From Candidatus Poribacteria bacterium (GTDB taxonomy: Bacteria; Poribacteria; WGA-4E; WGA-3G), in assembly GCA_028820845.1 (NCBI GenBank), contig JAPPII010000114.1, positions 62,001-126,000 on the forward strand: 64,000 nucleotides of DNA. The letters are read 5' to 3'. The notes under the pieces were generated by a model. That model was given only the letters and a program-made list of their open reading frames with translations, was not told the DNA's origin and made no database searches. Below are positions 21,801 through 39,812 of this stretch, in pieces (within the stretch, counting starts at the first letter, position 1; every line of letters starts with the position of its first letter). The position numbers and the translations under genes were made by a program.

Positions 21801-22931
21801 TATTTCCTTTAATCTGTGAGCAATAATTTCTACTTCTCCTGGCCTGAGGGTTTGTCCGTTGATAAGGACACCGTTCGCGCCTGTTCCTGCGATGTCAATA
21901 ACGGGATTGCCTGCTTGCAGCTGCTGGAGGATTTCGTCTCGTGTGATACCGAGTTCTTCTGCGTCGAATCGGATTTCGGTGCGTGGCATGGGTTGCCCGG
22001 CTTCAGATGGAAAGCTGCGGTGTACTGTAACGCCTTGGATGTCCTTGAAAACCTCAGTATAATAGGTAACCTGATCTTCGTAAGATTGCTGTAGTTGTTC
22101 GTGATCCTGACCGAGATACCACTCCACGGCGGCGAGCAGCCCGACCAATTCCTCTTTGCCGACTTTCATACCCCTACCAATAAACGGATGCGGTGGTCCA
22201 TTGAAAGCAATCGCTTCAATCAGCGATTTTGTCCCGACGATTAACCCGCTGCTCTGTGGACCGTGTAATCCTTTTCCGCCACTAAAGAGTGCCAAATCCG
22301 CGCCCATCTGTGTGAAACGCCATAAGTTTTCTGGGGGTGGTAGCTGCGCGGCGGCATCAACAATAAGCGGGACATCGTGCTTTTTGGCAATACTAATGGC
22401 TTGTTCATAGGGGACCCAGAGGTGTTCCCTACTCGGATTTGCGAAATAAAAGATTGCGGCGGTTTTTTCGGTGATGGCGTTTTCGAGTTCGTCGGGAGGC
22501 GTACCATTTTCATCACCTATTTCTACAAAACTAACACCGACCTGTCGCACTGCAAAATCGTATCCGACGCGACCGTGGCGGTGTACGATGACTTCACTTT
22601 TCATTGTGGACGGTTGGAAACCGCCCCTACCGGGGGAGGGGTGGAGCGGTAATTTCTCACGTTTGGTAGCATCAAGTCCAGTGATGCAGGCAGCAGTGCT
22701 GAGCGTTAGGGCAGCAGCGGCACCACAAGAGACGTACGCCGCCTCGTTGTGGGTAAGTTTCGCAATTTCTTCACCGACCCGTTTTTGCAGTTCGATGATG
22801 TCTACGAAATGTTTCGAGGCATCGGCCATCGCTGCAACGACCTCAGGGGGCATGATAGAGCCACCGAGTCGCGTGAGCGTTGCGTTGCCGTTAATGACTG
22901 TGCGAATGCCGAGGCGTTTGTAGATGTTCAT
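21780..22931 (-). CDS. SelA-like PLP-dependent enzyme
   Basis: A 383-aa fold-type I PLP protein. It opens IYKRLGIRTVINGNATLTRLGGSIMPPEV, typical of the SelA/D-glucosaminate-6-phosphate ammonia-lyase group, and carries the likely PLP lysine in LFSGGKGLHGPQSSG and a D in LIVDAAAQLPPP. It contains SCGAAAALTLSTAACI as the phosphate-binding stretch. True SelA is longer, and no selenocysteine genes are nearby, so a lyase or aminotransferase role is more likely. Its ATG overlaps the upstream ATPase stop (ATGA), indicating coupling. Its last residues come from a palindromic repeat. Confidence 0.82.
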   Translation of the reverse strand: MNIYKRLGIRTVINGNATLTRLGGSIMPPEVVAAMADASKHFVDIIELQKRVGEEIAKLTHNEAAYVSCGAAAALTLSTAACITGLDATKREKLPLHPSPGRGGFQPSTMKSEVIVHRHGRVGYDFAVRQVGVSFVEIGDENGTPPDELENAITEKTAAIFYFANPSREHLWVPYEQAISIAKKHDVPLIVDAAAQLPPPENLWRFTQMGADLALFSGGKGLHGPQSSGLIVGTKSLIEAIAFNGPPHPFIGRGMKVGKEELVGLLAAVEWYLGQDHEQLQQSYEDQVTYYTEVFKDIQGVTVHRSFPSEAGQPMPRTEIRFDAEELGITRDEILQQLQAGNPVIDIAGTGANGVLINGQTLRPGEVEIIAHRLKEILCSIDC

Positions 22932-23740
22932 CCCACTTCTTCACCATCTAATTTACCAACTTGGAGGTCAATTTCATTACGAGATTCAATCTTATCCACT
23001 TTGCCATCCACCATGCGGAAGATACGGTCGGAAACATCTAACATCTTGTGGTCGTGCGTTGCTGTGATGATGGTCACACCGTTTTCGGCGTTAAGTCGGC
23101 GGAGCAAAGCGATAATTTCTAACCCAGTTTTAGTGTCGAGGTTTCCTGTGGGTTCGTCAGCGAGAACAATCGCTGGATCGTTGGCGAGGGAACGTGCGAT
23201 TGCGACGCGCTGTTGCTGTCCGCCGGAGAGTTCCAACGGCTTGTGTTGCACACGGTCACCGAGTCCAACGAGTGAAAGCAGATCAACACCCTTTTCTCGG
23301 CTTTCGTCGGCACTCATACCCGCGAAAATCATGGGGAGAGAGACGTTTTCGAGTGCTGTCATAACAGGGATGAGATTGAAGGATTGGAAGATGTAACCAA
23401 TCTTTCGGCAGCGGAGCCATGCGAGTTCATAGGCGTCGAGTTGTGCGATGTCTACTTCGTCAATGTAGACTCTGCCTTCGGTTGGTTTATCAAGTCCGCC
23501 AATCATATTGAAGAGCGTTGATTTTCCTGAACCCGAGGGCCCCATAATGGAGATGTATTCACCGCGTTGGATTTGGAAGTTGACACCGCGGAGTGCATCA
23601 ACCGTCTGCGTCCCCATCTCGTAGCGTTTAATGAGGTTCCGCACGCGGACTGTATTTTCTTTCGGAAGAACGCGTTGGAACTTTTCTGGTGTTTCGGCTA
23701 GAATTGCGTTGACATCGCCTATTTCTGTTGGTATGTTCAT
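22928..23740 (-). CDS. LolD/MacB-type ABC transporter ATPase
   Basis: A 270-aa ATPase: Walker A GPSGSGKST, Q-loop YIFQSFNLIP, signature LSGGQQQRVAIA, Walker B IVLADEPTGNLD and H-loop TATHDHKM. DEPTGNLD is characteristic of the LolD/FtsE/MacB group that works with FtsX-type permeases. AAGGAG precedes the ATG. No permease is adjacent. The giant FtsX-domain gene (32457-39812) lies upstream on the same strand beyond the restriction block, and a MacB-like permease lies at 15091; either could be the partner. Confidence 0.92.
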   Translation of the reverse strand: MNIPTEIGDVNAILAETPEKFQRVLPKENTVRVRNLIKRYEMGTQTVDALRGVNFQIQRGEYISIMGPSGSGKSTLFNMIGGLDKPTEGRVYIDEVDIAQLDAYELAWLRCRKIGYIFQSFNLIPVMTALENVSLPMIFAGMSADESREKGVDLLSLVGLGDRVQHKPLELSGGQQQRVAIARSLANDPAIVLADEPTGNLDTKTGLEIIALLRRLNAENGVTIITATHDHKMLDVSDRIFRMVDGKVDKIESRNEIDLQVGKLDGEEVG

Positions 23741-23764: not shown

Positions 23765-25258
23765 TTAAAGTTCGTTAATAGTGAGCTGATATGATGTTTC
23801 TCGTACGGTTTGTATCAAGTAGTTCCTTGTCCATGCGAGTGCAGCTTGTAGGTCTATCGGTGGGTTAGGTTGTATGTATCCATCTCGTTTATTTTGTCTA
23901 CGAAGTGCGTTAAGACTCATTGTGTTCGATTTTTTACTATTGCACGGCTGGCAGAGCAGAGCACGGTTATCTATATCATTTGTGCCCCCATCAGTTTTTG
24001 GGATTATATGATCAAGATGCAAATACCGTTTGTCGGGTGGAATGAAGTTGCATCCCCAACATTTAAGGCCGAACTGCTCGGTGAGGATGTCGTGCATTTC
24101 AGCGTGACGAAGTTGATGTTGGGTTTCAATAGAATAGACGTGTGCCAATTCGGGTGAAGTTTGCTCGTTTTGATCTGTACGTATGGGTGGTTCGGTCTGA
24201 TAATGCATTTCGTATGGACGTGTTTGTCTATCAAGCCATTCTTTGTTGGTTGCGTATTTTTCAAGACGTTCCCGCTCTTTGCGTGGGATTCCCATGAGAC
24301 GGGTGATGATATGATAGCGTGCATCTTTTCGCCTATCAATGCCAACCCAGCGTCGATTGAGATTTTGTGCAGCGATGATAGTAGTTGCACATCCGCAGAA
24401 TGGATCTAATATAAGGTCGCCTTCGTTACTACTAGCTTTGATGATACGCTCGTAGAGAGCGACAGGTTTTTGGTCGGGAGAGCCGGTGCGTTCGTCGTCT
24501 CGGCCTTGCATCGTTAATTCTTTTTCTGTCCATAGATTTCCAATAGCTACTCCCGGGTGAGTGTCAAGATAAACTCTTTTGACGATGCCTTGTCTGAATT
24601 TGCGTCCGCGTGGTATTGCATAACGGCTTCCATTTTCGTCAACATGTTTATATTCAGACTTGATAGTTTGTTCTGACAACGGACGGAATATTTGATTAAA
24701 AGCGTGTGCATTGGAGGCAGAATAAAAAAACAACGTGTCGTGTTCTGTTGTAAATTTCAATTTAGCCGTGTTTTTATGCCCACCATACTTTTTCCACACA
24801 ATTTCGTTGCGAAAGTTTTTCTTCCCCCAAATTGCATCCATACACATCTTGATATAATGACTCGCGGTAGAGTCGCAATGTAGGTAAATAGAACCCTTAG
24901 GTTTTAGGATACGGTGCATTTCAAGTAGTCTGACGCTAAGGAAGCAGAGGAATGCTGCGGTATCCCCCCCTTGGCAATGTTTAGCGGCTTCGATTGCATG
25001 GTAGAGTGCAGCATGGTTGTCTTTGATTTCTTCAAGCCATTTGGGGTGTACTTCGTTCCACTTCCATTGATCAGGTAATATACCCGTGTCGCCCCATTTC
25101 CAATTATCAACATAGTGACCTGCTGTTGTACTACGATTTCGTTTAGTGTTAAATGGTGGGTCGGTAGCGATAAGATCTACGGTTTCGCTGTTCATTCCCC
25201 GAAGCACATCTAAATTGTCCATTTCGTAAAGTGTGTTATCTAAGAAATTTTGTGTCAT
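23765..25258 (-). CDS. Beta-class DNA methyltransferase fused to a C-terminal HNH nuclease
   Basis: A 497-aa protein. The N-terminal ~330 residues are an amino-methyltransferase with motif IV first (IATDPPFNTKRN) and motif I later (LDPFCGCATTIIAAQNL), the beta-class order, with GSIYLHCDSTASHYIKMCMD in between. The C-terminal ~110 residues form an HNH module: CWGC, then HLDHIIPKTDGGTNDIDN and LLCQPCNSKKSN (two CxxC pairs plus HDH and N). One chain could therefore modify and cut the same site. There is no clear RBS. It is the last gene of a three-gene restriction block. N4-C versus N6-A modification cannot be decided. Confidence 0.86.
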   Translation of the reverse strand: MTQNFLDNTLYEMDNLDVLRGMNSETVDLIATDPPFNTKRNRSTTAGHYVDNWKWGDTGILPDQWKWNEVHPKWLEEIKDNHAALYHAIEAAKHCQGGDTAAFLCFLSVRLLEMHRILKPKGSIYLHCDSTASHYIKMCMDAIWGKKNFRNEIVWKKYGGHKNTAKLKFTTEHDTLFFYSASNAHAFNQIFRPLSEQTIKSEYKHVDENGSRYAIPRGRKFRQGIVKRVYLDTHPGVAIGNLWTEKELTMQGRDDERTGSPDQKPVALYERIIKASSNEGDLILDPFCGCATTIIAAQNLNRRWVGIDRRKDARYHIITRLMGIPRKERERLEKYATNKEWLDRQTRPYEMHYQTEPPIRTDQNEQTSPELAHVYSIETQHQLRHAEMHDILTEQFGLKCWGCNFIPPDKRYLHLDHIIPKTDGGTNDIDNRALLCQPCNSKKSNTMSLNALRRQNKRDGYIQPNPPIDLQAALAWTRNYLIQTVRETSYQLTINEL

Positions 25259-25304
25259 ACGAGATGCTCTGCCAAGTACAGTATTGACAGGCCTCTGATT
25301 TTTT

Positions 25305-27299
25305 TCAAGAACGAAAACTATTTTCGGTTCTTTGTTTTACTTCTTGAAGCCGATTATATCGCTCTAAGAATTCAGTATGTGACCGTTGAACCATATTGAG
25401 TAAATCTTCATATCTCCTAATGTATATCTGTGCTTTTGCTAAATTATCCCGTTTTCCTCTGACTTGATAAGTGTCGACCAAGTTTCCACAAAGAAGATAG
25501 CCCGTGACTTCCTTATATTGATGCTCGGGATCGGTTGTTCGGTTAATGTGATCCCGCATAAAATTAACGTACTCTTCAATTTGATCAAGCGCGTCCGTAG
25601 AAACCTTTGACTGTGGGCGTTTTATTTCTACGACAACTAAATGCGTACTTTCTCGCACACATAGAAAATCGATTCGCCTATCTATCTCTGGTATATCATC
25701 TCTTTCTGGAAATGTATTGCGTAGCAAGTCGCTATATCTAACTTCGTCATCCACTAAGGTCCAACGTGGATCAATCACCCAAGGAAATTCTTTTAAGAAA
25801 TTATGGAGCGTCGGGACCTCCAACGCGTTAGTCTTAATGAGGTTATCAAGTCTTTCAATTGTCGTTATCCGGCCTTCGGTAACCTTTGCCATTTCTTTTG
25901 CTTCTAAAATTTCCCATTCTCTAAATAAATTGAGGAGTTTTTCGGGTTCCTCAATTCCTGTGTTTTTTATTTCTGCAGCCATTTCTCTAAAGGAATCAAA
26001 CTTCCAAAAGTCAAGGAACATTTGGATCATTGATTCAAAGTCCTGGATCTCGGCAGTAGGATTCTTATCAGTCGATTGCTGAATCAATTGACGAACTAAT
26101 TGATCTGCTCGCTTAAACTCTCGCTTTTTGTCAATTTCCGCTGCTTGCTTTTGGAAGATAAGATATAGCGGATGCTCTTTTAACTTACGTTGATTATCTT
26201 CACTACGTTTTTTAGCCCATAAAGATGCTTTTTTATTTACCTCTTTTTGGCCCCATTCCTTCAGAGCTGTATTTGCTTCTGTATCCCATACTAACGAGTT
26301 TCGGGTCGTCGCGATTGTATCTTCTACTTCATCAACAAAATCAACGTGGAGTTCACCAATGAGATAGGAAAGCGCGAACTGTTGACCGATAACCGCGTCA
26401 AAAACGAATGGTTCTTGTACCAGCTTACCTCTTGCCATGAGCACAATACCGCGCTCTATCTTGTCTTTCTCTTGGCTTGTTCGGGTGAGTGCACCGATCC
26501 AACCTGACACTGTCCATCCAGTTCCAGGTTTTATCTCTGTCTTATCGTATTTCCACAAATACGGATTCCCATCCGCGTCCGAGGCAAGCTTGCTTTGCAA
26601 GTTTCGCTCTTCAATCGAGATAGGTTGGTCGTTAATGATGACTTCAAAGTCGTTCTGTTCCCCAATGACAGCAAATCTTCTCGCGAGTCCCCGACGAAGA
26701 GTGACGATTGAAATACTGCGAGTTTTGAATTTTGTGATGTACCTGAGGGTAATCTTTGTACCCTCGGATACTTTACCTGTCGGTTTCAGAGGTGGAAATT
26801 CAATTTCCCGTTTCTCTTCTTCTTTCAGGAGTTTGTCATAATTCATCTGAAAATGGCTGACTTCGCCATCTTTTACACTTTCTATAGCGATCTCCTTAGC
26901 GATTCCAAAAGCGGAAAACTTACCTATCCCTTTTCTCCCCATAATTTTACGCTTGTACGGAGTAGGTGTTTCTTCGGATTTTTCCTTTTCGCGTCGGTCT
27001 CTGCCTATAATGAGATATTTTTTACGGATATCCTGATCCGACATACCCAGTCCATTGTCTTTAATTATAATTTCTGAAGTTTGTTCGTTAATTTGCCCTT
27101 CTGGAATTGTAATTTCAACCTTTGTCGCATTTGCATCCCAAGCGTTGGCTACCAATTCACCAATGACCGGCGGCAGTGTCGAGTACATCTGCAGACCAAG
27201 GTGTTTGATGGTAGCAACATCAAATTCCATCCGATACGGCTGTTTTGAAGAAACTGGGTTATGCTTCATAGTGTACTTATCTATTTTGTTCAAATGCAT
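25305..27299 (-). CDS. GHKL-ATPase/nuclease, HgiDII/BbrUII-like restriction protein
   Basis: A 664-aa protein. The first ~350 residues are a GHKL (Hsp90/MutL-type) ATPase: N-box VIGELVANAWDANAT, G1 IKDNGLGMS, G2 region GRKGIGKFSAFGIA. The C-terminal region holds a PD-(D/E)XK-like core, RIDFLCVRESTHLVVVEIKRPQ (D, then E-I-K). This combination beside a C5-methyltransferase matches the HgiDII/BbrUII family of restriction enzymes; those recognise GTCGAC, which here is only a suggestion. It overlaps the methyltransferase gene by 23 bp if the ATG at 27299 is used; an in-frame ATG at 27269 would remove the overlap. Confidence 0.8.
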   Translation of the reverse strand: MHLNKIDKYTMKHNPVSSKQPYRMEFDVATIKHLGLQMYSTLPPVIGELVANAWDANATKVEITIPEGQINEQTSEIIIKDNGLGMSDQDIRKKYLIIGRDRREKEKSEETPTPYKRKIMGRKGIGKFSAFGIAKEIAIESVKDGEVSHFQMNYDKLLKEEEKREIEFPPLKPTGKVSEGTKITLRYITKFKTRSISIVTLRRGLARRFAVIGEQNDFEVIINDQPISIEERNLQSKLASDADGNPYLWKYDKTEIKPGTGWTVSGWIGALTRTSQEKDKIERGIVLMARGKLVQEPFVFDAVIGQQFALSYLIGELHVDFVDEVEDTIATTRNSLVWDTEANTALKEWGQKEVNKKASLWAKKRSEDNQRKLKEHPLYLIFQKQAAEIDKKREFKRADQLVRQLIQQSTDKNPTAEIQDFESMIQMFLDFWKFDSFREMAAEIKNTGIEEPEKLLNLFREWEILEAKEMAKVTEGRITTIERLDNLIKTNALEVPTLHNFLKEFPWVIDPRWTLVDDEVRYSDLLRNTFPERDDIPEIDRRIDFLCVRESTHLVVVEIKRPQSKVSTDALDQIEEYVNFMRDHINRTTDPEHQYKEVTGYLLCGNLVDTYQVRGKRDNLAKAQIYIRRYEDLLNMVQRSHTEFLERYNRLQEVKQRTENSFRS

Positions 27300-28317
27300 T
27301 AATAATTGATTTTCCCAGATATTCAGCGAGTTTCACTGGGACAGCGTTACCGATTTGCCGAGCTATCGCAGAAATAGATGTGCCAAAAAATTTGTAATTA
27401 TCCTTGAAGGTTTGTAGGGCAGCTGCTTCACGCAATGAAATACCCCTGTCTTGTTTAGGATGTATAAAGCGTCCAGAGTAAACATCCGTACAGCGAGAAG
27501 TCAACGTTGGTGCAGGTTTATTCCATGCCATCCGTCCAAACACATCTCTATGTGCATTCGGTTTTTCTTGATGACATTTTAGAAGGATAGTTGTATCAGT
27601 TACATCCCGACGGCTACCACCATCTTTCGGTACTGCCTCAACAATGCGTTTATGATGAGGTTTCAGTTCCCTTGCAACATGATTTGAATAATCTTGTGCC
27701 TCTTTTGCATCAACATCAGGGTAATTTTCAATACACTTTTTCACTGTTACAAATTTATCAGGATCTGTCTGCGGAGTAGGCAGAGAAATTGAGCCTTTTT
27801 TCGATGCCAAAAGGATGAATCGCTTTCGTGTCTGTGGAACCCCGAAATGCTTCGCATCAAGTAAATCTGCTGCAGGTTCTGAAAATTCACACTCTTCAAG
27901 AACCTCCAAGAATTTTTCATAAATCTCTTTTCCACAATTGTTGTTCAGCCCGGGCACATTTTCAACAAGAATGAAATCTGGAGGACATTCTTTTACGATC
28001 TCGGCGAAACTTAAAAGCAAGACTTTTCGGCTATCATCTTTCCAGTTCTGTCTGCTAAGAGTAGAGAACGGTTGGCATGGCGTGCAAGCAGCATAAAGCG
28101 TTGTATCTTCATCTTGGATTCCGAGTTCTTTGCGTAGTTCCTGGATTTCAATTTTACCGATGTCTTTATTGATGAAACGGCTAGGTTTGTTATTGTGAGT
28201 GTAAGTGTCTTGCAGACGCTCATCGTTATCTACTCCTGCTAGCACTCCTATCCCAGCATCTAACAAACCTCTTGTTAAACCGCCTGCGCCGCAGAAGAAA
28301 TCAATTGCTTTAATCAT
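27277..28317 (-). CDS. C5-cytosine DNA methyltransferase
   Basis: A 346-aa enzyme (from the ATG at 28317; the frame stays open 20 codons further). Motif I DFFCGAGGLTRGLLDAG, IV AACTPCQPFS with the catalytic Cys, VI LVENVPGL, VIII QTRKRFILL, IX RGISLREAAALQTF and X IGNAVPVKLA are all present. It methylates cytosine C5 in a specific site and presumably protects against the adjacent HgiDII-like enzyme. I chose MIKAIDFFCG because motif I normally starts within a few residues of the N-terminus; no strong RBS marks either option. Confidence 0.93.
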   Translation of the reverse strand: MIKAIDFFCGAGGLTRGLLDAGIGVLAGVDNDERLQDTYTHNNKPSRFINKDIGKIEIQELRKELGIQDEDTTLYAACTPCQPFSTLSRQNWKDDSRKVLLLSFAEIVKECPPDFILVENVPGLNNNCGKEIYEKFLEVLEECEFSEPAADLLDAKHFGVPQTRKRFILLASKKGSISLPTPQTDPDKFVTVKKCIENYPDVDAKEAQDYSNHVARELKPHHKRIVEAVPKDGGSRRDVTDTTILLKCHQEKPNAHRDVFGRMAWNKPAPTLTSRCTDVYSGRFIHPKQDRGISLREAAALQTFKDNYKFFGTSISAIARQIGNAVPVKLAEYLGKSIINAFEQNR

Positions 28318-28476
28318 AAGACTTTTTCCCATGTTGAGAAAGGACGTATCTAAGATAACCTTTGTATATTGATACAAAAATGCTTGTTACCCATAAAGTT
28401 AAACCTTCAAATTAGTTTACCACAAACTTCCTTAGAATGTCAAACGACTTTCTCATATTTTTTCATAGATGTTAGT

Positions 28477-28947
28477 CTATTGTCGTCTCTGTAGAAATCC
28501 AAAAATGCCTTGTTTTTCAGGTTCGGGTTCTGGTGTTGCAGGCGCGTTCTGTCGGTTATCAGGGATAGCGAACCCGATGAAGTTCCGTTTGCCGAGCTGC
28601 TGCATAAACGTAAAGAGCGACGTTTCAGCCTCTTTTCGAGTCAGTTGGTACTGATTTTGAACACCCTTGACGATCTGTGAAATGGTATGCTTACCATCAC
28701 ACTTCTGCCATACATAAGTCCCGATGGAATCCAACACAATCACTCTTTTATCCGGAAGCATAAAGAGTTTACTGGCAAGTCGGATCCAGAGTTTGTCTTT
28801 CTGGGGGACCACAAGCGATGCTTCGCCCTTGTCGTCTATTTCCCATGTAATCAATTGGTTGCGCACAGGAAATGATTTCATGACCTGTGTGCGATCTACA
28901 TCAGGACGTTTCTTAAGTTTGAGAGTGTATAAGAGTTTGTTTAGCAT
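28477..28947 (-). CDS. PqqD-superfamily peptide-binding protein
   Basis: A 156-aa protein whose centre (~residues 55-130) matches PqqD: MLPDKRVIVLDSIGTYVWQKCDGKHTISQIVKGVQNQY...EAETSLFTFMQQLGKRNFI. PqqD domains are winged-helix chaperones that hold a peptide for a radical-SAM or other RiPP enzyme. No radical-SAM gene or obvious precursor peptide is in the window, so its use is unclear. The first 40 residues are basic, and the C-terminus is Pro/Glu-rich. It lies 39 bp after the 344-aa gene. Confidence 0.8.
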   Translation of the reverse strand: MLNKLLYTLKLKKRPDVDRTQVMKSFPVRNQLITWEIDDKGEASLVVPQKDKLWIRLASKLFMLPDKRVIVLDSIGTYVWQKCDGKHTISQIVKGVQNQYQLTRKEAETSLFTFMQQLGKRNFIGFAIPDNRQNAPATPEPEPEKQGIFGFLQRRQ

Positions 28948-28986: not shown

Positions 28987-30021
28987 TCAATGGCATTCAA
29001 TGCTCTCAGCGACCTTTTGGACAGTTGAGGATGCGTCGGTATTGCTGATGGATTGGATAACATAGATACGGTTAGAGTGATTACATCGCCATAAATGAAA
29101 GACAAGCGTTGTCCGTTTGGAGAGCTTATCGAGCATCAACACGGGTGTAAGCGGGACACCATCATAGAGCCGTGTCTGTTGTCCAATGAGTGTAAGGTGT
29201 TCGTCTTCGGTATCTGTGTGCGATGTCACTTCAAACCCGTAGCCGCGAATTGCTTTTGCGTATTTGGCGCGGAACCATGTCTCAAGCGGGTTCGGTGTAT
29301 CTGTATAGTCGCTTAGCATCACCTCTGCGGGTCCGTACCGCTCAACACTAAGACTCCCTCTGTCAGACGATTGAGGTGCTTTGTATTCAACTGTGCCGTT
29401 ATTCCGTAGGCGACCGCCTGCCGATTTAGCGAGTTTTATCACACTTTGAAAACGTTCTTTTTTCGCGACGAAGGCGAACAGCAGATAACCACTTAGCAGT
29501 TTTTGACGTTCTAATTTGTATTCTGTGGGGACACCTAACTTAAGTCCATAAGCACTCCAGAGCGTCTGTGGCGCGTCTCTGTGGTCGGTAATTGACTGAA
29601 AAATACGGAGGACTGTTGGTCGCCAGTTTTCTTTGAGCCGTCCCATCACTTGGACGATCGTAATCCGTTTTCCGGCGTGGAAGATCAGTCCATTAGCACG
29701 AATACTCCCCTTCCAGCTAAAACCGAGGACGTTACGCCCCTCAAAAAACTCGGGGTCTTTAATGAAATTGACGTTCCGGCGGAAAGAAAGTTCAGCACCT
29801 TTCTTATAGGTTTTGCGAATCAGTTTAAAATATTCGTCGAGCGTTGCGTGGAGATCGGGTTTTTTGCGTCGGGTGTGTGCCCATTTAAGTTCGAGACGCG
29901 GCATTTCAGCGTCGTCAAGTCGCAAGTAACCTGTTTTCTGGTCTCCACTGAGTCCACTGAGTTCCCAAGTTGTCGGGATTTCAAGTTGTATGCCTGCCCA
30001 GCCAAAAACAGTCCAGTCCAT
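28987..30021 (-). CDS. Unrecognised protein with two similar halves
   Basis: A 344-aa protein I cannot assign. The beginning (WTVFGWAGIQLEIPTTWELSGLSGDQKTGYLRLDD) and the middle near residue 175 (LWSAYGLKLGVPTEYKLERQKLLSGYLLFAF) look like copies of one module: a hydrophobic strand, P-T-x-(W/Y), then a charged turn and another strand. No signal peptide or membrane segment. It sits upstream of the PqqD-like gene on the same strand, followed closely, so the two probably act together. Confidence 0.7.
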   Translation of the reverse strand: MDWTVFGWAGIQLEIPTTWELSGLSGDQKTGYLRLDDAEMPRLELKWAHTRRKKPDLHATLDEYFKLIRKTYKKGAELSFRRNVNFIKDPEFFEGRNVLGFSWKGSIRANGLIFHAGKRITIVQVMGRLKENWRPTVLRIFQSITDHRDAPQTLWSAYGLKLGVPTEYKLERQKLLSGYLLFAFVAKKERFQSVIKLAKSAGGRLRNNGTVEYKAPQSSDRGSLSVERYGPAEVMLSDYTDTPNPLETWFRAKYAKAIRGYGFEVTSHTDTEDEHLTLIGQQTRLYDGVPLTPVLMLDKLSKRTTLVFHLWRCNHSNRIYVIQSISNTDASSTVQKVAESIECH

Positions 30022-30112: not shown

Positions 30113-32101
30113 CTAAAACGGTTTGACGATTACGGCTTTTGAGACAAGCGCGATCGCAACGGTTCCCATACCGATGAGACCGACTCCGCAGGCGAATCCT
30201 GCTGCAAGTACCGGATTGAACATATACCAGCGTCGCATTCCGAATCGTTTAATCATGTAGAACCGCCCGATAATTGCGCCGAGTAATCGGGCAACCATAC
30301 TGCCTGGGTCTGCCCCGATACCCCCAACGATACCGTAAAACCACATTGAAGGTAATTTAAAGACCCACAGCATACCATAGAGGGCAAGGCTTGAGGTAAA
30401 TCCTGCGGAGACATAATCGCCGCGAATCGCCTGAAGCATTTCACTATTTCCGTCCCGTAGCGATGTTTTCCAGAGTGCTTCGTTTGTAGCGTTAATGGGC
30501 CACATCATCTGTGCGAACGGGTACTGTGCACTCGGGATCGGAGCGATCTTCCAGATAAAGTGGAGGACGACAATTCCACTGACGAGCAAAATCGGCATAA
30601 TTAGCAGCGTACCTGCAAGATTTGAGGTAAAGGTTGTGCCGGTCAATTCGAGCACGCGCCACCCCTGTGTGCCACGTCCATAATCCTCGTCTGGTAGTGG
30701 TGCAAACCAGATGTCTATCTCTTCGTAGCGACTCAAGATAAATGTGATTTCGTGCAGGTATGGGATTTCAAAAAGGTCTCGTCCGAGAACCCCGAAAGTT
30801 CGCGCCGTGATATAGGAATTAATCGGTGTGTACAAGAATGCGTAGCCGATCAAGAAACTGAGTGGGAAATTCGGGACCATCCAATGAATAAGCCAAACGA
30901 ATCCAGCCATACCAACGAGCCACATTAAGCCCATCAACCATATCGGGAAATCGCCTCGATTTGGAGGCGTTGCGAAGGAACCGCGTTCGCCTGCTCTTTT
31001 CTGAGCCTTCCGTAGTTTGAAGAGCATCGGAATCGAAGCAGCCATACCGACGACAGCGAGGCTAAAGGATTTACCCATGCCGTAGCTAAACCAGAAATCC
31101 AGGTTGTTGAATAAAGTAACACCCCGGACATCCAGTCCTGGGTTCCATTGATGGAGAATCTCATACCGATATAGGATTTGTGGGTTCAAGATAAATTGCG
31201 ATGCCATTGCGGTTACGAATTCTGACATGATAATCGGGAATGGCATCACGAACCCGATGAGCATCTGTCCGAAATCGGTTCGGAAAGCGAAGACCCCTGT
31301 TGGTGCGAAACCTTCGATGCTCTGTGTGAAATCTATCCACGGGATTTTCAAGATCTGAATCGGTTGGCTCATCATGACCCCAGTCAATGAAGGCACCCCG
31401 ATATAGAGGAATCCCCAGATTAACCCAGCCATGGAGCCGATAGAGAAGACGCGCCATCGCCATGTCTCTTCTTTCCCTGTTGTTTCTGCAAGTGCGGTTG
31501 CGCCTTGTGCGGCAATTGGTGCCATTGGATATGGGAGCCGCTCGAGGTCCGCCGTGAGTCGGAACAAAATATATTGTCCGCTAACGAATCGCAACGTGCC
31601 GAGCAGCTTTCCGGCAAGGTAGATAGCAATAGGCAGAAACCAGTCTGGATGCAGCAGGCTGCGCGTAAGTACACCGACAGAATTACCGGCAGGCACAATC
31701 CACTCTGGAATTTTATCGGCGATTTCGTAGGAAGCTGCCTGGGGTGTATTGATAAAGTAGGCGTACCAGATAAAGTTCCGGTACTGCATTCCACTGCCGA
31801 CAGCGGCTCCGGTTAATCCGAGAAGCATATAGAGCTCCTGTCGCCGGGCAGTTGTGAAGGAACGCCGCGCGAGTTCAGTGAATAGAATAACGGCAACCCA
31901 AGGTGCCGCTTCAGCCCCAGATTGACCGGATACGTAACTGAGATAGATGGAGCCAGGCATCATCAGCAAGCCAACGAAAAGTGCGCCAACAAACACCTTG
32001 ACCGTTAGCCCCGACTCAAAGGTACGGATACCGCCTTCAATGTCGTATCGCTGCGCCCAAGCTTGCCATTCATCTGCTTGTGATACTCTTTCTCTCGCCA
32101 A
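30113..32101 (-). CDS. DUF6785-like polytopic membrane protein (OPT-transporter-like)
   Basis: A 662-aa protein with about a dozen hydrophobic segments (e.g. VFVGALFVGLLMMPGSIYL, WLMGLMWLVGMAGFVWLIHW, TLLIMPILLVSGIVVLHFIW, ACGVGLIGMGTVAIALVSK). ADLERLPYPMAPIAAQGATAL recalls oligopeptide-transporter-type proteins, and the whole resembles DUF6785 proteins. The start is TTG with AAAGGAG upstream. A small two-helix membrane protein gene precedes it. Transport is plausible; the substrate is unknown. Confidence 0.75.
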   Translation of the reverse strand: MARERVSQADEWQAWAQRYDIEGGIRTFESGLTVKVFVGALFVGLLMMPGSIYLSYVSGQSGAEAAPWVAVILFTELARRSFTTARRQELYMLLGLTGAAVGSGMQYRNFIWYAYFINTPQAASYEIADKIPEWIVPAGNSVGVLTRSLLHPDWFLPIAIYLAGKLLGTLRFVSGQYILFRLTADLERLPYPMAPIAAQGATALAETTGKEETWRWRVFSIGSMAGLIWGFLYIGVPSLTGVMMSQPIQILKIPWIDFTQSIEGFAPTGVFAFRTDFGQMLIGFVMPFPIIMSEFVTAMASQFILNPQILYRYEILHQWNPGLDVRGVTLFNNLDFWFSYGMGKSFSLAVVGMAASIPMLFKLRKAQKRAGERGSFATPPNRGDFPIWLMGLMWLVGMAGFVWLIHWMVPNFPLSFLIGYAFLYTPINSYITARTFGVLGRDLFEIPYLHEITFILSRYEEIDIWFAPLPDEDYGRGTQGWRVLELTGTTFTSNLAGTLLIMPILLVSGIVVLHFIWKIAPIPSAQYPFAQMMWPINATNEALWKTSLRDGNSEMLQAIRGDYVSAGFTSSLALYGMLWVFKLPSMWFYGIVGGIGADPGSMVARLLGAIIGRFYMIKRFGMRRWYMFNPVLAAGFACGVGLIGMGTVAIALVSKAVIVKPF

Positions 32102-32456: not shown

Positions 32457-35400
32457 CTAATCCGCTGGTGCCGGGACGGGCTCGAGTTGCCCTGTTGCCG
32501 GTTCGTCTGTTCCTTCCGTTCTACCGCGTTCATGGAATTCTGCTCGGATATCGACGCTGAACGTCCGCCAAATCAGAAGTTGTTTCCGCAATAGATTGAG
32601 GAAACGTCGGTTCACACGTTTCCAAGAGGCGATCTCGCCGCTCTCACGATGCACATCCAGTGTAATCTTATAGAGATCTTCCTCTTCTCCACCTACGGGC
32701 GATGTAACGAACTGGATGGATTGGCTTACACCTAAATCATAAGGTGCTAACCATACCATCATACTAATCTGATAGGCGTCTTCACCTTCAGATTCTACAG
32801 TGCTGAAGGCGACTTGGTCGGTATAGAAATCACTGGCGGATTCATCAGCATGTGCCTCGAAGTAGTCGCGCATGAATACGTTCAAGCCGAGTGACTCCTC
32901 TTCAAGGACAGTGAAGGGGAGGTTAAAATGCCAGACATCACCTTCGGGTTCTGGGAGTTTCCATTTACGTTCAATATCGGGAACTGCCATACGTGAGGCT
33001 TTGATTGCCGGATATAGGGTACTCAGTAGAACGACAATCATGACGATAATCGTTGCAACGACAGTCGACATTGAGGAATAGTTGAGGGTCAACCCGGCGA
33101 GCCATCCGAAGTTTACGAGGGTTGTTGCGATGGCTTGTCCCATGAGATATCCGAGCACTGCGCCGACGATAGCGTATACACACGCCTCTGCGAGGAATAG
33201 GAAGGCAATATGTACGGGCGCGAGTCCGACGGAACTATAGATACTGATTTCTCGGACGCGCTCATAGACTGCCCCAAGCATGGTGTTGAGCACGATAAGC
33301 GCAGCGATGAGAATCGGTACGAATAGATTGCCCATCCCGCTGAAACTTGTCATTCCAATACTGCTGTAGAGATATGTGTCTTTATCACGACCGACGAAGA
33401 AGTCAAGAGCAATACGGTTCATGAGGGGTGCCATGATAAGGTCCAGCTTATCAACCGCACCTAACAATTCTGGGTCATCCGTTTGTGGTTCCATGTTGAC
33501 AGCGACGCTTCGGAGCGTGCCACCTTGGTTCATAACCACCTCGTAGGGCAGGATAGCAACGCTATCCGGCGTGAGGTGGAGATACTTTTGTAACTCGCCT
33601 TCCAGCGTTTCATCGCCGGTTGCCCCACGACTGCGTTGCTGTTGCATCAATTGATAGTCAACAGGTGTGAGTTCTTCGCCGTCGTTGTCTGTAAGGTCCT
33701 TGAAACCGATACCCAGGACGCCGACAACGGTAAAGTCTGCACCATAGACAGAGACAGTTGCCTTGCCCATATCGCTTTCGGTGATTTTCAACAATTCCGC
33801 CATTCCTTTGGGTAGCACGATAGCATAGGGCCATTCTGTTGGCCACTCCCCAGCGTCAGCGGGGTTGAACCACTTTCCATATTGAAGGTATCTATTGATA
33901 CCACTGACCTCCGGTTCTGCTTCGTTCATGCCGACAAGCATATTCGCAGCAAAAGTTAGTGCCTCACCCGTAAGTGCATGGGTAGGAGGCGAGGGATCCG
34001 CAGGATTCGCTGTGCGTGTGAGTTGAACAAAGGATTGGTCTCCGGTACCAGAGGATTGGTACCAGGCTCGCGGTGCGACAGAATTCCGAACAATGACGAT
34101 GGATTCTTCGTCTACTTTTTCGATAAAGCCATCTTGTTCTAAAGTCGCTATCTCTTCCGCAACATTGATCGGTTGTTGTCCCTGCTTGACCAGGATTTCG
34201 TTTTTGCGTGCCAGCAGCCGTTCCAGAGCGGTGAGTGTGATTTGCGTCTTCTGCATGTCGTTCAGAACAGAGGTAAGCACGGGTTCTTCTAACGGACGCC
34301 AGTATTGGTCTCGGATGAGAAGTCCTGTATAGCGAGGCGTTACCTGTGGGAGACTCGTTCTATTCGGATGCATGAACGTCCGCACAGAGGTAAACGAGAT
34401 GACAGTGAAGGTAAGGATTACCAATGTGCAGCAGGTTAGGATTGTCCGTCCTTTCCGTTTTCGCATGTTGGAGATCCCCAAACTAAACGCTGCGGCACTC
34501 GCGCTTAACCGTCCGACATCTGCTTTGTAAACCTTGCTTCCCTCCTGCCGAATCTTTTCAAGTTGTTCCTCGAATTTTCGGACAATGATACTGATGACAA
34601 TAACTGTCAAGGCAAGCACAACGAATGCAATGAGAATAATCACAGGTGTCGTTGTGATCTGGAATGCGGGATGGACCTGGCTGAGGAAGAAGAAGACGAG
34701 TAAAAAGATCCCGAATGAGCCTAAAATCTGTTTGTGGATATTCGGGAAACCGAAGATGAGCCGTTCCATAAAGTAAGCGAACGGCATTAACAAGGCGAGA
34801 TAGAACATCACACCGTTGACAACATCGTTTCCGGTCTGTTTGACATCAGGATATGCGCGTGATTCGTAGCCCCATGCCGCGCGCGCCAACTTGAGTGCTT
34901 GCTGGTAGTCATTTTGTAGCAGTTCCGTCTCGGCGCGTGCAAGATACTCGTTCGCAAATTGATGGAGTTTGTCAAGCCGATCACTGGAGATACCGAACCG
35001 TTTGTAGAGTTGTGATCGGTTTTCGTCGAGCCACCACATATCTCGGACAACGACGTACGGCGTAAGACGAATCCGGCCGTTCTCACGGACAACAAATCCT
35101 TCGCCGGTATAGAGCGTCGGATTTTTCATACCGCTTTTTGTGGCTTTGATAAGTAAGAGACGTTTACCGATTTGCCCATAAGCCATTCCGACCTTGATAC
35201 GAGTATTCGGTTCGCTGTAAACGAGGGCAATCGGTTCGGCTGCAGAGACACCTTCCTGCTGCCACGGTTTTGACATCCCATATTTTTCTGGCGCGCTATC
35301 GGTGAGTGCATCGTAGACTTCAAGTTCCCGGAGGGTTCGCAGATACCGTTGATCGACGAGATCGTAGATAGTTGTGGATACGCACGGGAATGTGACGACC

Positions 35401-38400
35401 CGACACCCACGTCTGCGGGTATTGATCGGGATTTTATTGGGAAGCAGTTCCGCGCCGTAGTTCCCTAAATCAGGCGCATAGACGATGTCCCCAGAGTCTG
35501 GGTCAAGGATATAGGCTTCGACTTCTTGCACACCCCTGAGACGCCGGGTGGCTCTACCTTCCATGGCTAACCCGGCAACTTCAAAGTTGCCTTTATTATC
35601 ACCCATAACAAACAGGTCTCCACGGACACCCATCATGGTTTTATGCTTTCTGCGGAGCGTCAAGATTGGATAGGGGACCGGTTTATTGGGGAGTGCGGAT
35701 TCACGAGCATCAAATTCAACGACGTCGCCGAAGAGGTTACAGTAGAAATTTCCGACGCGTGCGGCGGTTGGCATTTCTTCATCGCGGAGTGCTTGGATAA
35801 GCAAGGATGCAAGCGTCTGTGCTTGTTGATGGAGGTTGCCGCCTTCGCGTAGATCGACCCGCTCAATTGTATCAAGTGGTGTGTCGGTTAGAACGCGTGC
35901 GTCTTCGATAGTTGCGAAAGCGATACCTGTTTTTCCGACGAGCGTTGCGACTTCGCTGTCAAAAGCGATCTTACCTGGGATGTAGGTTTTCCAAGTTTTT
36001 CCACCACTTGCGGAGATAGCATTAACGAAGTTTGAATCGCCGCCGAGACCCGCGATTGAAATGAGGGTTTTAATGTCCTCAATTTCGTCATCAGAGAAGG
36101 TTTCTGGGTCCTCGTGTCGTAGGCGGAGCATCGCGTCCAGCTGCTCGCGCGTTCGGATATTATTCTTCCGATTTTTCTTTGCTGTGCGGACATCGTTTCG
36201 GATGAAACGTTCAACCTCTTTGCGGATATAGTCCATATCCTTGAGCATGTCTTCGGAGGGTTCACCTTGGTTGCGCCACTGCTCGAACTGCATCTTCATT
36301 AAGCGACTCACACCGCTGAGTCCTGTGAGTTTGCTGAAATGGGAGCTGAGCAGTGTTTCAAGGGTTTTTCCTTCAAGAGTGGATTTATCGGAGATACCGC
36401 CAGCCACTGTCCATTGGCGTGCCATGACGGCTTGTCGGATCTGGTCATCTGTCCACTGCCAGAGTTTCCGGACACGGACCCCAAAATCGGCATCCTCTGC
36501 ATAGGATGCGAGTTGGTTGCCGATACTTGCAAACTCTCGGCGCAGAACGAATTCAGGCTGTTGGTCATAGAACCATCCTTTGTTGAACACACCAAACTGA
36601 TCCGATTGAGAGGAGAGGTCGATGCTAATATAGAGAGAGGTGTAGTAGCGATTGAAGAGGTCTTGAAGTGCAATAGCGGCTTCAATCTGTCCAAGTTTCC
36701 GATTATATTCTCCGGTATCGATGCGGAGCATCTTTTCAATACGACTCTGAATGTTACGGAATCGCGCGTTTCGGAGGGTTAGCATATTATCGCGCAGTAG
36801 GGTCTTCGTCTCTGTATCAAGGTCGGTATCTAAAGTAGATAGCCGGCCTATGAGATTTTCAAGTGCGATTATGTCTGTTTCCGAGCGTCTTTTGACGGTC
36901 GTCAAGAGTTCTGCTTCCGTGATGTGTGATGCGATGTGGGCGCGTAACTTGAGAGCCTGCTCTGCTTCAGTGTCTGAAAGATAGTTTTCCAAGATGAGTT
37001 TTTCTTCCTCTAAGTATTCTCTTCCAAGCGTCTCAGCAGTTGCCATCAAGTTTTGAATGCGAGTGCGCTCCAAGCGAGCGTTTCGGAGTCCGATTTCAAA
37101 AATGCTCTGCTTGTCTTTGAGCAAGTCAGTGATCAGGACAGCGGCATCCGTGATGTCTTCAGATTCCGTTAGGCGTTGTCGGAGTTGTGTGTCAATGGTG
37201 TTCAAGCGTTCGATACCGGCTTTAGAGAGGAATTTTCCGCTGTAGAGTAGCATGTTGGTATCTTGTTGCGACGTAGGTGTTTCCTTGAGTTTCCGGATAC
37301 TCGCCTTAATCTGATCTTCAGCAGCCTTGCTATCAGGGATTTGCGCTAAGATTTTTTCAAGAAGTTGAGATTCCGTTTGGATGGCGACCTCAAGGGAGTT
37401 GTCGGTTTCGCGCAAGACCTTCCGTGCCTGTTTCGCGTCATTGAGTCCATGTAAATCGAGGTGCCGGTCCATGATTTTTTCGGGAGTCCACATGAGGGCG
37501 AATTTGCGTTTATCGCTCATCTCCCAGTCTGCGAGTGTTTTGTTTAGCATCTCAATGTCAGGGACCAACTCTTCGGGCAGATCACTTGGGACCGGAATTT
37601 CCCACCCTGAACCTTCTTGTACAGGAATCAGGTAGGCATCGTTTGGATGTGTAGCGTATTCGTCGGTTGCGCCGGTTTCTATGGCACGAATGAGTTTCGC
37701 TACAGCCCATGTATCAAGGCGGGCGATCGGCAGTCCAAGCGTTTCAATTAATTCACGTTGTGCCGTGCGGCTTGTGTTTAGCGCAACAGCACGAACATCG
37801 GCTAACTCCTTGACGATGTCTCGCAGGAAATGCGTTGTTTGTAGTGCTTCCTTCTTTGAGCGAGCGAGGTTTGCCAATAATATGCTCTTCTCTTCACCAG
37901 TGAATTCTTGTTTTTCTCGTTTCCGATTCTTATCTGCTTGCTTCTTTTGACGTTCCGAGAAGTCGCGTTGTTGGTTCGTGAGAGTTTCGATCTCGGAGCG
38001 GGTTTCTGCCAAGCCATCTAAGGTGGTCGTCAGAGATTCGAGGTCAGATTTTACGTTATAGATGCCGTGGAAGAAGTCAGAGGGGAGATCGACTAAGACG
38101 CTCCGGTCAATTGAGAGCAGGAGTCTTCTCCCTAATTCTTCAAATTCAATAACATCCGTGGACAGTCCGCGGCGTAGCCCGTGCATTGTTGGTGTCCCCG
38201 GAGAGTCCGTGTCACTACCGACAATATCCTGCCCGATGCCTTCCATAAATGCTCGCATGCCCGCGAGTCCTTGAAAATGTCCGTCAACTGCGACAAACAG
38301 CACAGAGTATCCTGGACGGTATTCGGGGAGGCTAAAGAGCCTTGCGACTTCCATGAGAGTGGCAACACCGCAAGTTGGATCTGCCCCAGGTGCCATAGCA

Positions 38401-39812
38401 GGCACAATGGACATGGAATCATAGTAAGCAGTAAGGACGATGAGTTCATCGCGTAGCGATGGGTCGCCACCTTCCAAAAAACCGCGTATATTCTGACCGA
38501 CCCGACGTTCCCATGTCATCTTTCCTCTGACGCGGGCGTTTACCTGATTTCCTGCGTTGTTTTCTTCTTCGAGTAAGTTAGTGAGAAAATCCGCATCTGC
38601 TTTGGAGATCCAGAATCGTGGTATGTTAGCGGGAACTGTACCGAATTTGTTCTCCGCTTCACCTCGGATGGTTGTTTCAGGTTCAATGAAGATAATAGCA
38701 GTGCCACCGAGCATTGTTGCGTTAATATAGCGGGTACTGGAGTTGAAATCGAGGAGAGCTATGGCCCCTTTTGGTATGAAGATGTGTGCTTCGCTGGCGG
38801 CGACGAATTCACCAGATTCATCGATTTGCCCGTCTTGGTTATTGTCAATACCGTCGGTGGCATCGCCTGGGATTTCGTCTGTCCAACCATCGGCATCGTT
38901 GTCGATCCCGTCTGTTGCCCATCCAAGAATCTCAGAGAGCAGTGGAATTTCGCCGTATTCATCAATAGTACCGTCTTCATCGTTGTCAATGCCATCGGAT
39001 GCTTTTTGCAGATGTTCGTTGAGTACATCGTCAGTGATGCTGGCTTCCGTGATACGGTAACGCCGAGCAAGCGATGTGAGGGTATCTCCGTCTTGGAGTT
39101 TGTACCAGAATCCCCCGATGTTAGTGCCGTTGAAGTCAGCGAGTTCGCCATCGTCGCCGTAAAGGAGAGGACCGGATAAGCCGCCGGTTGGAATGTATAC
39201 ACTGTTCCCTTCTACAACAGGGGATGGCAGGAATTTATTTCGTTCATCTGTGAGGATAACTTCTTCGGAGACTTGGTAGCTTGCGGCGATGTCTTGGAGT
39301 GTTTCGTCTGCCAAGACAGTATGCTTAATTCCATCTGCTAATAGGGAGGTTCGGACGAGATTTGGCCAAAGTGGAGTGAGTTTGAAACTATGTAGGACAG
39401 TACCGTCTGGTGAGACTATCTCAATGACGCTATCGCCGTGATCGATCGGCACAGTAACTGGGAACTCTCGACTTTCTACGTTTTGCAAACCGATTTCGAC
39501 AAATCGGTCAAAAATGTACTTGCTGCCACTTGCGGCTTGTGGGTAACCTGTTACGCGGCTCTCTAAACTTGACAGGCGTGCGATATCCTTCCGAATGTTG
39601 CCAATGGACAGATCATCTCGAATTTGGATGGCTGCGGTTTGCCTACCGGTGCTGGAAACCGTTTGCGTGTATGCGATATTGCAGAGTCCACTGATGAGTA
39701 AAATAGAAAGACAAAGCATTAAGACACGGCTTGCCCATATATGTTGTGCAGTTAGATTTGCTATGGCACTGAAACGTCTTGAATCGTGCTTGCTCCTACT
39801 ATGGATTTTCAT
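32457..39812 (-). CDS. Giant FtsX-type permease with degenerate M28 peptidase, LysM segments and Ca-type repeats
   Basis: A 2451-aa protein. Residues ~28-47 are a signal anchor. An M28 peptidase-like fold starts at SSLESRVTGYPQAASGSKYI, is interrupted by two LysM-like segments (~163-208 and ~237-270) and three DGIDN(D/N)xDGxxDE repeats (~273-337), and resumes to ~540. Its catalytic sites look lost: the zinc His of AHxDS is Y463, ADD(N/G) reads ADPT, and the EE pair reads H512-F513. A long charged helical region (~600-1250) follows. Membrane segments appear at ~1668-1760 and ~1790, and the FtsX-like C-terminal set lies at ~2167, ~2204 and ~2250 (VYERVREISIYSSVGLAPVHI loop). The ATG at 39812 follows GGGAG and a clear promoter. 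It probably works with a LolD-type ATPase. Confidence 0.85.
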   Translation of the reverse strand: MKIHSRSKHDSRRFSAIANLTAQHIWASRVLMLCLSILLISGLCNIAYTQTVSSTGRQTAAIQIRDDLSIGNIRKDIARLSSLESRVTGYPQAASGSKYIFDRFVEIGLQNVESREFPVTVPIDHGDSVIEIVSPDGTVLHSFKLTPLWPNLVRTSLLADGIKHTVLADETLQDIAASYQVSEEVILTDERNKFLPSPVVEGNSVYIPTGGLSGPLLYGDDGELADFNGTNIGGFWYKLQDGDTLTSLARRYRITEASITDDVLNEHLQKASDGIDNDEDGTIDEYGEIPLLSEILGWATDGIDNDADGWTDEIPGDATDGIDNNQDGQIDESGEFVAASEAHIFIPKGAIALLDFNSSTRYINATMLGGTAIIFIEPETTIRGEAENKFGTVPANIPRFWISKADADFLTNLLEEENNAGNQVNARVRGKMTWERRVGQNIRGFLEGGDPSLRDELIVLTAYYDSMSIVPAMAPGADPTCGVATLMEVARLFSLPEYRPGYSVLFVAVDGHFQGLAGMRAFMEGIGQDIVGSDTDSPGTPTMHGLRRGLSTDVIEFEELGRRLLLSIDRSVLVDLPSDFFHGIYNVKSDLESLTTTLDGLAETRSEIETLTNQQRDFSERQKKQADKNRKREKQEFTGEEKSILLANLARSKKEALQTTHFLRDIVKELADVRAVALNTSRTAQRELIETLGLPIARLDTWAVAKLIRAIETGATDEYATHPNDAYLIPVQEGSGWEIPVPSDLPEELVPDIEMLNKTLADWEMSDKRKFALMWTPEKIMDRHLDLHGLNDAKQARKVLRETDNSLEVAIQTESQLLEKILAQIPDSKAAEDQIKASIRKLKETPTSQQDTNMLLYSGKFLSKAGIERLNTIDTQLRQRLTESEDITDAAVLITDLLKDKQSIFEIGLRNARLERTRIQNLMATAETLGREYLEEEKLILENYLSDTEAEQALKLRAHIASHITEAELLTTVKRRSETDIIALENLIGRLSTLDTDLDTETKTLLRDNMLTLRNARFRNIQSRIEKMLRIDTGEYNRKLGQIEAAIALQDLFNRYYTSLYISIDLSSQSDQFGVFNKGWFYDQQPEFVLRREFASIGNQLASYAEDADFGVRVRKLWQWTDDQIRQAVMARQWTVAGGISDKSTLEGKTLETLLSSHFSKLTGLSGVSRLMKMQFEQWRNQGEPSEDMLKDMDYIRKEVERFIRNDVRTAKKNRKNNIRTREQLDAMLRLRHEDPETFSDDEIEDIKTLISIAGLGGDSNFVNAISASGGKTWKTYIPGKIAFDSEVATLVGKTGIAFATIEDARVLTDTPLDTIERVDLREGGNLHQQAQTLASLLIQALRDEEMPTAARVGNFYCNLFGDVVEFDARESALPNKPVPYPILTLRRKHKTMMGVRGDLFVMGDNKGNFEVAGLAMEGRATRRLRGVQEVEAYILDPDSGDIVYAPDLGNYGAELLPNKIPINTRRRGCRVVTFPCVSTTIYDLVDQRYLRTLRELEVYDALTDSAPEKYGMSKPWQQEGVSAAEPIALVYSEPNTRIKVGMAYGQIGKRLLLIKATKSGMKNPTLYTGEGFVVRENGRIRLTPYVVVRDMWWLDENRSQLYKRFGISSDRLDKLHQFANEYLARAETELLQNDYQQALKLARAAWGYESRAYPDVKQTGNDVVNGVMFYLALLMPFAYFMERLIFGFPNIHKQILGSFGIFLLVFFFLSQVHPAFQITTTPVIILIAFVVLALTVIVISIIVRKFEEQLEKIRQEGSKVYKADVGRLSASAAAFSLGISNMRKRKGRTILTCCTLVILTFTVISFTSVRTFMHPNRTSLPQVTPRYTGLLIRDQYWRPLEEPVLTSVLNDMQKTQITLTALERLLARKNEILVKQGQQPINVAEEIATLEQDGFIEKVDEESIVIVRNSVAPRAWYQSSGTGDQSFVQLTRTANPADPSPPTHALTGEALTFAANMLVGMNEAEPEVSGINRYLQYGKWFNPADAGEWPTEWPYAIVLPKGMAELLKITESDMGKATVSVYGADFTVVGVLGIGFKDLTDNDGEELTPVDYQLMQQQRSRGATGDETLEGELQKYLHLTPDSVAILPYEVVMNQGGTLRSVAVNMEPQTDDPELLGAVDKLDLIMAPLMNRIALDFFVGRDKDTYLYSSIGMTSFSGMGNLFVPILIAALIVLNTMLGAVYERVREISIYSSVGLAPVHIAFLFLAEACVYAIVGAVLGYLMGQAIATTLVNFGWLAGLTLNYSSMSTVVATIIVMIVVLLSTLYPAIKASRMAVPDIERKWKLPEPEGDVWHFNLPFTVLEEESLGLNVFMRDYFEAHADESASDFYTDQVAFSTVESEGEDAYQISMMVWLAPYDLGVSQSIQFVTSPVGGEEEDLYKITLDVHRESGEIASWKRVNRRFLNLLRKQLLIWRTFSVDIRAEFHERGRTEGTDEPATGQLEPVPAPAD

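Follow-up and report, generated by a model that had tools for sequence, protein, structure and literature searches.

The 64-kb window (the whole stretch of DNA that was analyzed) contains a gene whose product joins an FtsX-type permease to what resembles an M28 peptidase that has lost its active site, and the question raised by this locus is what such a protein could be doing in the cell envelope. The original prediction, made from the sequence alone, saw in it a cell wall- or matrix-sensing device rather than an enzyme. With about even confidence, we propose that the giant protein is the receptor-bearing permease of a type VII (mechanotransmission) ABC complex, in which a pseudo-aminopeptidase would serve as the receptor, and that this complex is coupled to an OPT-like transporter. 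The anatomy of the protein is well supported; its ligand and its direction of work are what we infer. The features on which this reading rests are collected in Table 1.

Gene model and distribution

The minus strand from 39878 to 32457 is an uninterrupted open reading frame of 2,473 codons and represents one single gene. The length, start, and permease character originally assigned to it stand, and the strand has been corrected to minus. The start at 39812 is preferred over the one at 39878 because AGGTGGGAG lies 5' of it, the same methionine is conserved in close relatives, and stop codons occur upstream of it in some relatives. Residue numbers for the domains of the giant protein follow the 2,473-aa frame throughout.

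The source genome belongs to "Candidatus Poribacteria," as near-identical loci and loci of 60 to 96% identity all came from this phylum. A phylum-wide search recovered a homolog, mostly in single copy, from 82 of 85 Poribacteria genomes and 21 of 22 genera, and the gene is present in nearly every sponge-associated Poribacteria genome. These homologs include ones on single-contig or closed chromosomes, nearly all are one full-length frame, and in most of the fetched loci they measure ~2,400 to 2,560 aa. An assembly join or a fusion of two genes, which the original prediction had named beforehand as an outcome that would undo it, is ruled out by the closed chromosomes and the uniform length. Identity to distant Poribacteria is 0.8 to 0.92 over most of the membrane half, 0.75 to 0.79 in the M28 pieces, and 0.36 to 0.57 in the long helical part. 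In 46 of 69 loci, a divergent XRE-type helix-turn-helix regulator (40197 to 40598 in the window) lies upstream of the giant gene and possibly controls it. A few genomes carry a second copy (L062 and L063) of ~2,560 aa that is ~64% identical and stands without the operon of OPT, PqqD, and ATPase genes described below; downstream of these second copies are secreted proteins resembling beta-propellers.

Giant homologs were also found in 123 of 151 genomes of a second phylum, which is probably Armatimonadota. The isolate code matches a study of the Sungai Klah hot spring, in which the metagenome-assembled genomes from the green biofilm that were placed only to phylum belong to Armatimonadota and Planctomycetota (PMC11071339). 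Most of the second-phylum proteins are ~1,520 to 1,830 aa long. Those of ~1,550 to 1,700 aa have none of the LysM, Ca-type, or helical insertions of the Poribacterial form, so that, as predicted from their sequences, they show the bare plan: a PA and dead M28 region, three membrane helices, and an FtsX-type permease.

Table 1. Features of the giant permease gene and its surroundings (window positions; residues in the 2,473-aa frame)
Feature	Position	Strand	Residues	Remarks
Giant permease CDS	32457..39812	-		2,451 aa (2,473 aa from the alternative upstream ATG at 39878)
Signal peptide/N-terminal hydrophobic segment	39663..39812	-	23-72	Hydropathy, alignment of N termini
M28 fold piece 1	39339..39605	-	92-180	Colinear with short homolog L076 and with 2ek8
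LysM-like segment 1	39180..39323	-	186-233	One of the two Pfam LysM stretches, delimited by eye; not in L074, L055, or L076
LysM segment 2	39009..39104	-	259-290	Pfam LysM, best stretch 259-282
Three DGIDND/NxDG Ca-type repeats	38805..38999	-	294-358	Kept in Poribacterial rows, absent in L076
PA-like subdomain, second half	38565..38777	-	368-438	First half ~234-256; alignment and fold match to PA-M28 aminopeptidases
M28 fold piece 2	38238..38528	-	451-547	AYYDS, GADPT, GHFQG; Pfam M28 463-546
AYYDS	38415..38429	-		First zinc His to Tyr; all 63 + 19 aligned sequences
GHFQG	38268..38282	-		Catalytic Glu replaced by His and zinc Glu by Phe
Helical insertion 1	36639..38237	-	548-1080	Long helices ~600-650 and 661-735; absent in second-phylum homologs
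M28 fold piece 3	36561..36638	-	1081-1106	SIDLSS, zinc Asp retained
Helical insertion 2	36060..36560	-	1107-1273	L076 alignment; helical in model, low confidence
M28 fold piece 4	35787..36059	-	1274-1364	TDTPLDT, last zinc His to Asp
Conserved pre-membrane domain	34860..35786	-	1365-1673	~0.8 identity among distant Poribacteria; low model confidence
Three extra membrane helices	34584..34823	-	1686-1765	Hydropathy
FtsX/MacB-type permease	32460..34445	-		TM 1812-1830, MacB_PCD-like domain, TM 2186-2288, conserved cytoplasmic tail
662-aa polytopic protein, divergent OPT family (predicted)	30113..32101	-		Downstream in 62/64 loci
344-aa protein, probably cytosolic	28987..30021	-		58/61 loci; orthologs in second phylum
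PqqD-like protein	28477..28947	-		PF05402 1.9e-11; 55/59 loci
Inserted restriction-modification module	23765..28377	-		N6/N4 methylase + HNH, HATPase/restriction-type protein, C5 methylase; not part of system
LolD/FtsE-type ABC ATPase	22928..23740	-		ABC_tran 6.1e-35; 53/58 loci

The interrupted PA-M28 domain and its zinc site

In the giant protein, Pfam recognizes Peptidase_M28 over residues 463 to 546 only (2.3e-7, over the cut-off). The N-terminal M28 fold of the original prediction was borne out, with two amendments: its PA part had been missed, and the domain extends past residue 547, resuming at ~1081 to 1106 and at 1274 to 1364. The short second-phylum homolog L076 (SKYG83; 1,542 aa) is colinear with the giant protein minus three blocks, namely, the LysM/Ca-repeat block and residues 548 to 1080 and 1107 to 1273, and the pieces left after removal of these insertions are together a single predicted PA-M28 aminopeptidase domain. 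Because the pieces aligned with L076 and the fold match form one domain, the long helical region is placed, on the strength of the alignment rather than of the segment's own model, inside the M28 domain of the Poribacterial protein. It had been described as lying after the M28 domain and before the membrane, and as a separate domain it is ruled out by the short homologs; the LysM and Ca-type blocks are inserted in the same way.

The fold assignment draws on 19 short homologs, of which all match Pfam M28 and 2 match Pfam PA, and their profile matches the aminopeptidase 2ek8 at an E value of 6e-21; nicastrin appears as one weak Pfam match (0.059). A model of the L076 ectodomain with a mean pLDDT of 47, reaching 70 to 90 across much of the first 280 residues, matches 2ek8, 3iib, BSAP (6hc6), transferrin receptor, and GCPII in Foldseek. 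In VIA-align, residues 10 to 475 of this model superpose on 2ek8 with a Z score of 22.3 (rmsd of 8.6, 342 residues aligned) and the model superposes on residues 3 to 291 of a Vibrio aminopeptidase with a Z score of 18.4 (rmsd of 3.5, 222 aligned), with Z scores of 17.8 to 18.4 across essentially the whole Vibrio/Aeromonas enzyme. Mean pLDDT values for the two models that were built are 47 and 57, and the M28 pieces of the giant protein itself are of low confidence.

The LysM-like segments and Ca-type repeats reported within the M28 region are indeed there. Pfam LysM matches twice (2.4e-6, 27.8 bits over the two stretches, against a cut-off of 20.9), and residues 294 to 358 hold three repeats of the D-x-D/N-x-D-G type. 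Much of the first helical insertion has a pLDDT of ~70 to 90 in an AlphaFold2 model, with two helices of 51 and 75 residues; a fold search using the helical-insertion model, which is partly of low confidence, returned a best match with an E value of 0.066. The LysM segments, Ca-type repeats, and helices are Poribacterial add-ons, which the shorter second-phylum relatives lack.

The zinc site was compared by alignment to zinc-bearing relatives in 82 sequences from the two phyla (63 + 19). All three motifs in which the ligands had seemed replaced (AYYDS, ADPT, and GHFQG) are present, and the loss is uniform. In all 82 sequences the first zinc His is Tyr and the catalytic Glu is His. At the position of the bridging zinc Asp one residue is deleted, and a neighboring residue is Glu or Asp. 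Phe takes the place of the zinc Glu in all but a few sequences, which have His or Cys, and Asp takes that of the last zinc His, again with a few exceptions (Glu or Asn). One zinc Asp, the only ligand kept, is retained in all 82. The giant protein thus departs from the definition of an active M28 peptidase (His, Asp, Glu, Asp, and His plus the catalytic Glu). The possibility that other residues supply the ligands, also raised beforehand as a way in which the prediction could fail, was checked in this alignment, and no zinc-type substitutes for the lost ligands occur at the aligned positions. A normal two-zinc site would therefore not be able to form at these positions, and the same replacements in 82 sequences rule out a domain that is dead in one genome only. 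We infer from these replacements that catalysis has been lost and that the protein is, as first suggested, probably not an enzyme. It is the missing ligands, not the missing Glu, that carry this argument, because PDB entry 2anp is titled as a functional E151H mutant of an aminopeptidase. Given how constant the replacements are, the pocket probably retains a role in binding.

Membrane half, ATPase, and operon

Hydropathy predicts seven membrane helices after the signal peptide, three followed by an FtsX-type unit of one plus three, with a MacB_PCD-type periplasmic domain between the first two helices of that unit. The FtsX membrane domain of the original prediction was confirmed (PF02687, 8.9e-12, over the cut-off), although the membrane half is larger than the four-helix FtsX unit alone. 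MacB_PCD is below threshold in the giant protein (17.7 versus 27 bits) and over its cut-off in L076 (34.6 bits); among the short homologs, FtsX is found in 19 of 19 and MacB_PCD in 9 of 19, and the PDB permease relatives of their profile include LolF, MacB, and LolC. By class, then, the giant protein is a predicted type VII ABC permease. It falls far below the curated LolC/LolE family (TIGR02212; 19 versus 362 bits) and the curated FtsX family (TIGR00439; 12.9 of 255 bits). The genome separately encodes a 287-aa FtsX-like protein (E value of 1.9e-28) that fits better than the giant protein while remaining below the curated cut-off, a LolC/E-like permease (4.6e-31, below the cut-off), and a MacB-like gene. 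Because these separate relatives exist, the giant protein is not simply the cell's FtsX, LolC/E, or MacB, and we rejected it as a replacement for FtsX or as the only Lol permease.

Genes were clustered around 69 Poribacterial loci, with those having enough downstream DNA as denominators (Table 1). The operon reads, on the same strand, giant permease, OPT relative, 344-aa protein, PqqD-like protein, and, last, a LolD-type ATPase. This ATPase retains its Walker A, signature, Walker B, and His motifs, and its nearest family is LolD (4.4e-70, below the equivalog cut-off). By genomic linkage it is the conserved partner of the giant permease, a partner that the original prediction had proposed to look for. 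The 662-aa protein of the window has no Pfam match, and PDB sequence searches with it and with its profile returned none; two members of its orthologous family (L127 and L129, with profile E values of 1e-268 and 8e-246) pass the Pfam OPT cut-off (PF03169), and we therefore regard it as a probable divergent OPT-type protein.

The arrangement recurs in the second phylum, where among 20 loci the 662-aa family follows the giant gene in 15 and an orthologous ATPase, 65 to 72% identical, is near it in 9. Some of these loci also have the 344-aa and PqqD proteins, and some second-phylum giant paralogs have no OPT neighbor. An FtsX-type permease of 200 to 285 aa is nearby in 13 of the 20, beside the ATPase. 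A small FtsX-type permease is encoded in 79 of 85 Poribacterial genomes, away from the giant operon. In the source genome of the window it forms a two-gene unit with a second LolD-type ATPase (L124:8508-10014). As it lies outside the Poribacterial operon and has its own adjacent ATPase, the small FtsX may be part of another complex.

In the window, the restriction-modification module separates the PqqD gene from the ATPase gene and so splits the operon. Related modules occupy the same spot in L018, L028, L059, and L072, and their recurrence between PqqD and ATPase makes the operon look like a hotspot for insertions. The DNA methylase genes were considered as parts of the system and rejected, being restriction-type genes found at only a few loci. 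In L028, L031, L051, and L052, the giant gene is followed, 14 to 29 bases on, by the gene of an HsdM-like DNA methylase/restriction protein of 733 to 750 aa, which makes another type of defense insertion into this operon. Further methylase/restriction pairs in the window are a type II methylase (50403 to 51368) with a restriction enzyme match (51365 to 52210) and a methylase (43458 to 44375) with its neighbor (42591 to 43457).

Possible function and relation to known systems

With its zinc site lost, an ATPase of its own, and a partner resembling a peptide transporter, the giant protein probably senses its ligand or passes it on instead of cutting it. Transporters of the type VII class move periplasmic domains with ATP, and no substrate passes through the membrane domain (PMC5985334). 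We hypothesize that a dimer of the ATPase drives a permease pair, either the giant permease with a small FtsX or two giant permeases, and that ATP binding would move the periplasmic domains in this manner, with no substrate crossing the ABC membrane domain. A peptide or peptide-like molecule would be bound, uncut, in the groove of the dead aminopeptidase, and the stroke would deliver or present this ligand to the OPT-like transporter or else gate that transporter. PqqD and the 344-aa protein could be cytosolic adaptors, and the Poribacterial LysM, Ca-type, and helical insertions may extend the receptor towards the peptidoglycan or outer layers or anchor it to the peptidoglycan. In its full form, an ATP-driven peptide receptor-transporter hybrid in which a mechanotransmission engine and a dead-aminopeptidase receptor feed or gate an OPT transporter in most members of two uncultured-rich phyla, this proposal is a tentative one.

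The strongest rival is a purely cell wall-regulating role, in which an ATP-driven, LysM-bearing ectodomain would switch on peptidoglycan enzymes as FtsEX does, with no link to transport. The FtsX-type permease, the LolD/FtsE-type ATPase, and the LysM segments and long helices of the Poribacterial forms all suit such a role, and a dead hydrolase fold is plausible as a regulator. However, the second phylum lacks the LysM segments and helices yet retains the core protein and its OPT neighbor, the operon has no conserved cell wall hydrolase, and the separate FtsX-like protein is present in the genome, and we consider this role unlikely. The same absence undercuts the original "cell-wall or matrix-sensing" proposal, whose basis was the LysM and Ca-type add-ons, as the second-phylum relatives keep the rest of the protein. 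The operon link of the core protein to an OPT relative makes peptide or peptide-like ligands at least as likely as matrix sensing.

The ATPase, nearest to LolD, and the presence of LolF and LolC among the best PDB permease matches bring to mind an extractor like LolCDE or LolDF, with the pseudo-peptidase as a periplasmic chaperone or handover domain in the trafficking of lipoproteins or envelope lipids; the near-universal, mostly single-copy conservation would fit this as well. We think it improbable, since it leaves the OPT neighbor unexplained, the LolC/E-like permease is elsewhere in the genome, and no LolA/LolB-like neighbor was recognized in gene tables or general Pfam scans. That the protein is still an enzyme, with its conserved Tyr, Asp/Glu, His, Asp, and Asp making up some other metal site or a hydrolase site that needs no metal, is highly doubtful. 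The (near-)invariance of these replacements across two phyla exceeds what a decayed site would keep, and a genuine aminopeptidase tolerates E151H (2anp), but with Phe for the zinc Glu in nearly all sequences and a deletion at the bridging Asp there would be no normal two-zinc site. PqqD domains bind peptides in maturation systems, and together with the MacB-type permease this might point to export, a MacAB-like complex pushing out a peptide (perhaps PqqD recognized) with the ectodomain as adaptor, but no radical-SAM, precursor, or MacA/TolC-like partner was recognized in the conserved neighborhood, and this is the least probable reading of all.

The giant gene is near-universal in one phylum, with 80 to 90% identity in its membrane part, and recurs with its partners in a second, so that it probably serves a basic need of these cells. 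No paper describing such a system was found in the open-access literature (most subscription papers lie outside it), and within the open-access literature covered, the complex would be an unreported type VII ABC complex. Like MacB, LolCDE/LolDF, FtsEX, and BceAB, it has an FtsX-type permease, a MacB_PCD-like domain, and a separate LolD/FtsE-type ATPase; unlike them, it adds a whole PA-M28 pseudo-peptidase and three extra helices before the permease and OPT, PqqD, and 344-aa partners in the operon. From the OPT family (PF03169), to which it is tied by two orthologs over the cut-off, the 662-aa protein of the window differs in lying below detection and in its strong linkage to an ABC system; we know of no OPT transporters that work with ABC systems. 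The PA-containing M28 aminopeptidases (2ek8, BSAP 6hc6, and 3iib) share the fold and the domain order throughout, whereas the giant protein has no zinc site, is membrane tethered, and in its Poribacterial form is interrupted by insertions. Transferrin receptor 1 and nicastrin are inactive M28-fold proteins that work as receptors, and in them, too, the PA and M28 fold serves as a receptor or scaffold (Z score of ~18 for transferrin receptor 1), although identity to transferrin receptor 1 is only ~20% over the fold, which here belongs to an ABC permease. If our reading is correct, the giant protein would be a bacterial counterpart of these animal proteins, an M28 peptidase turned receptor, but one that, unlike the animal receptors, is connected to an engine powered by ATP and to an OPT-type transporter.
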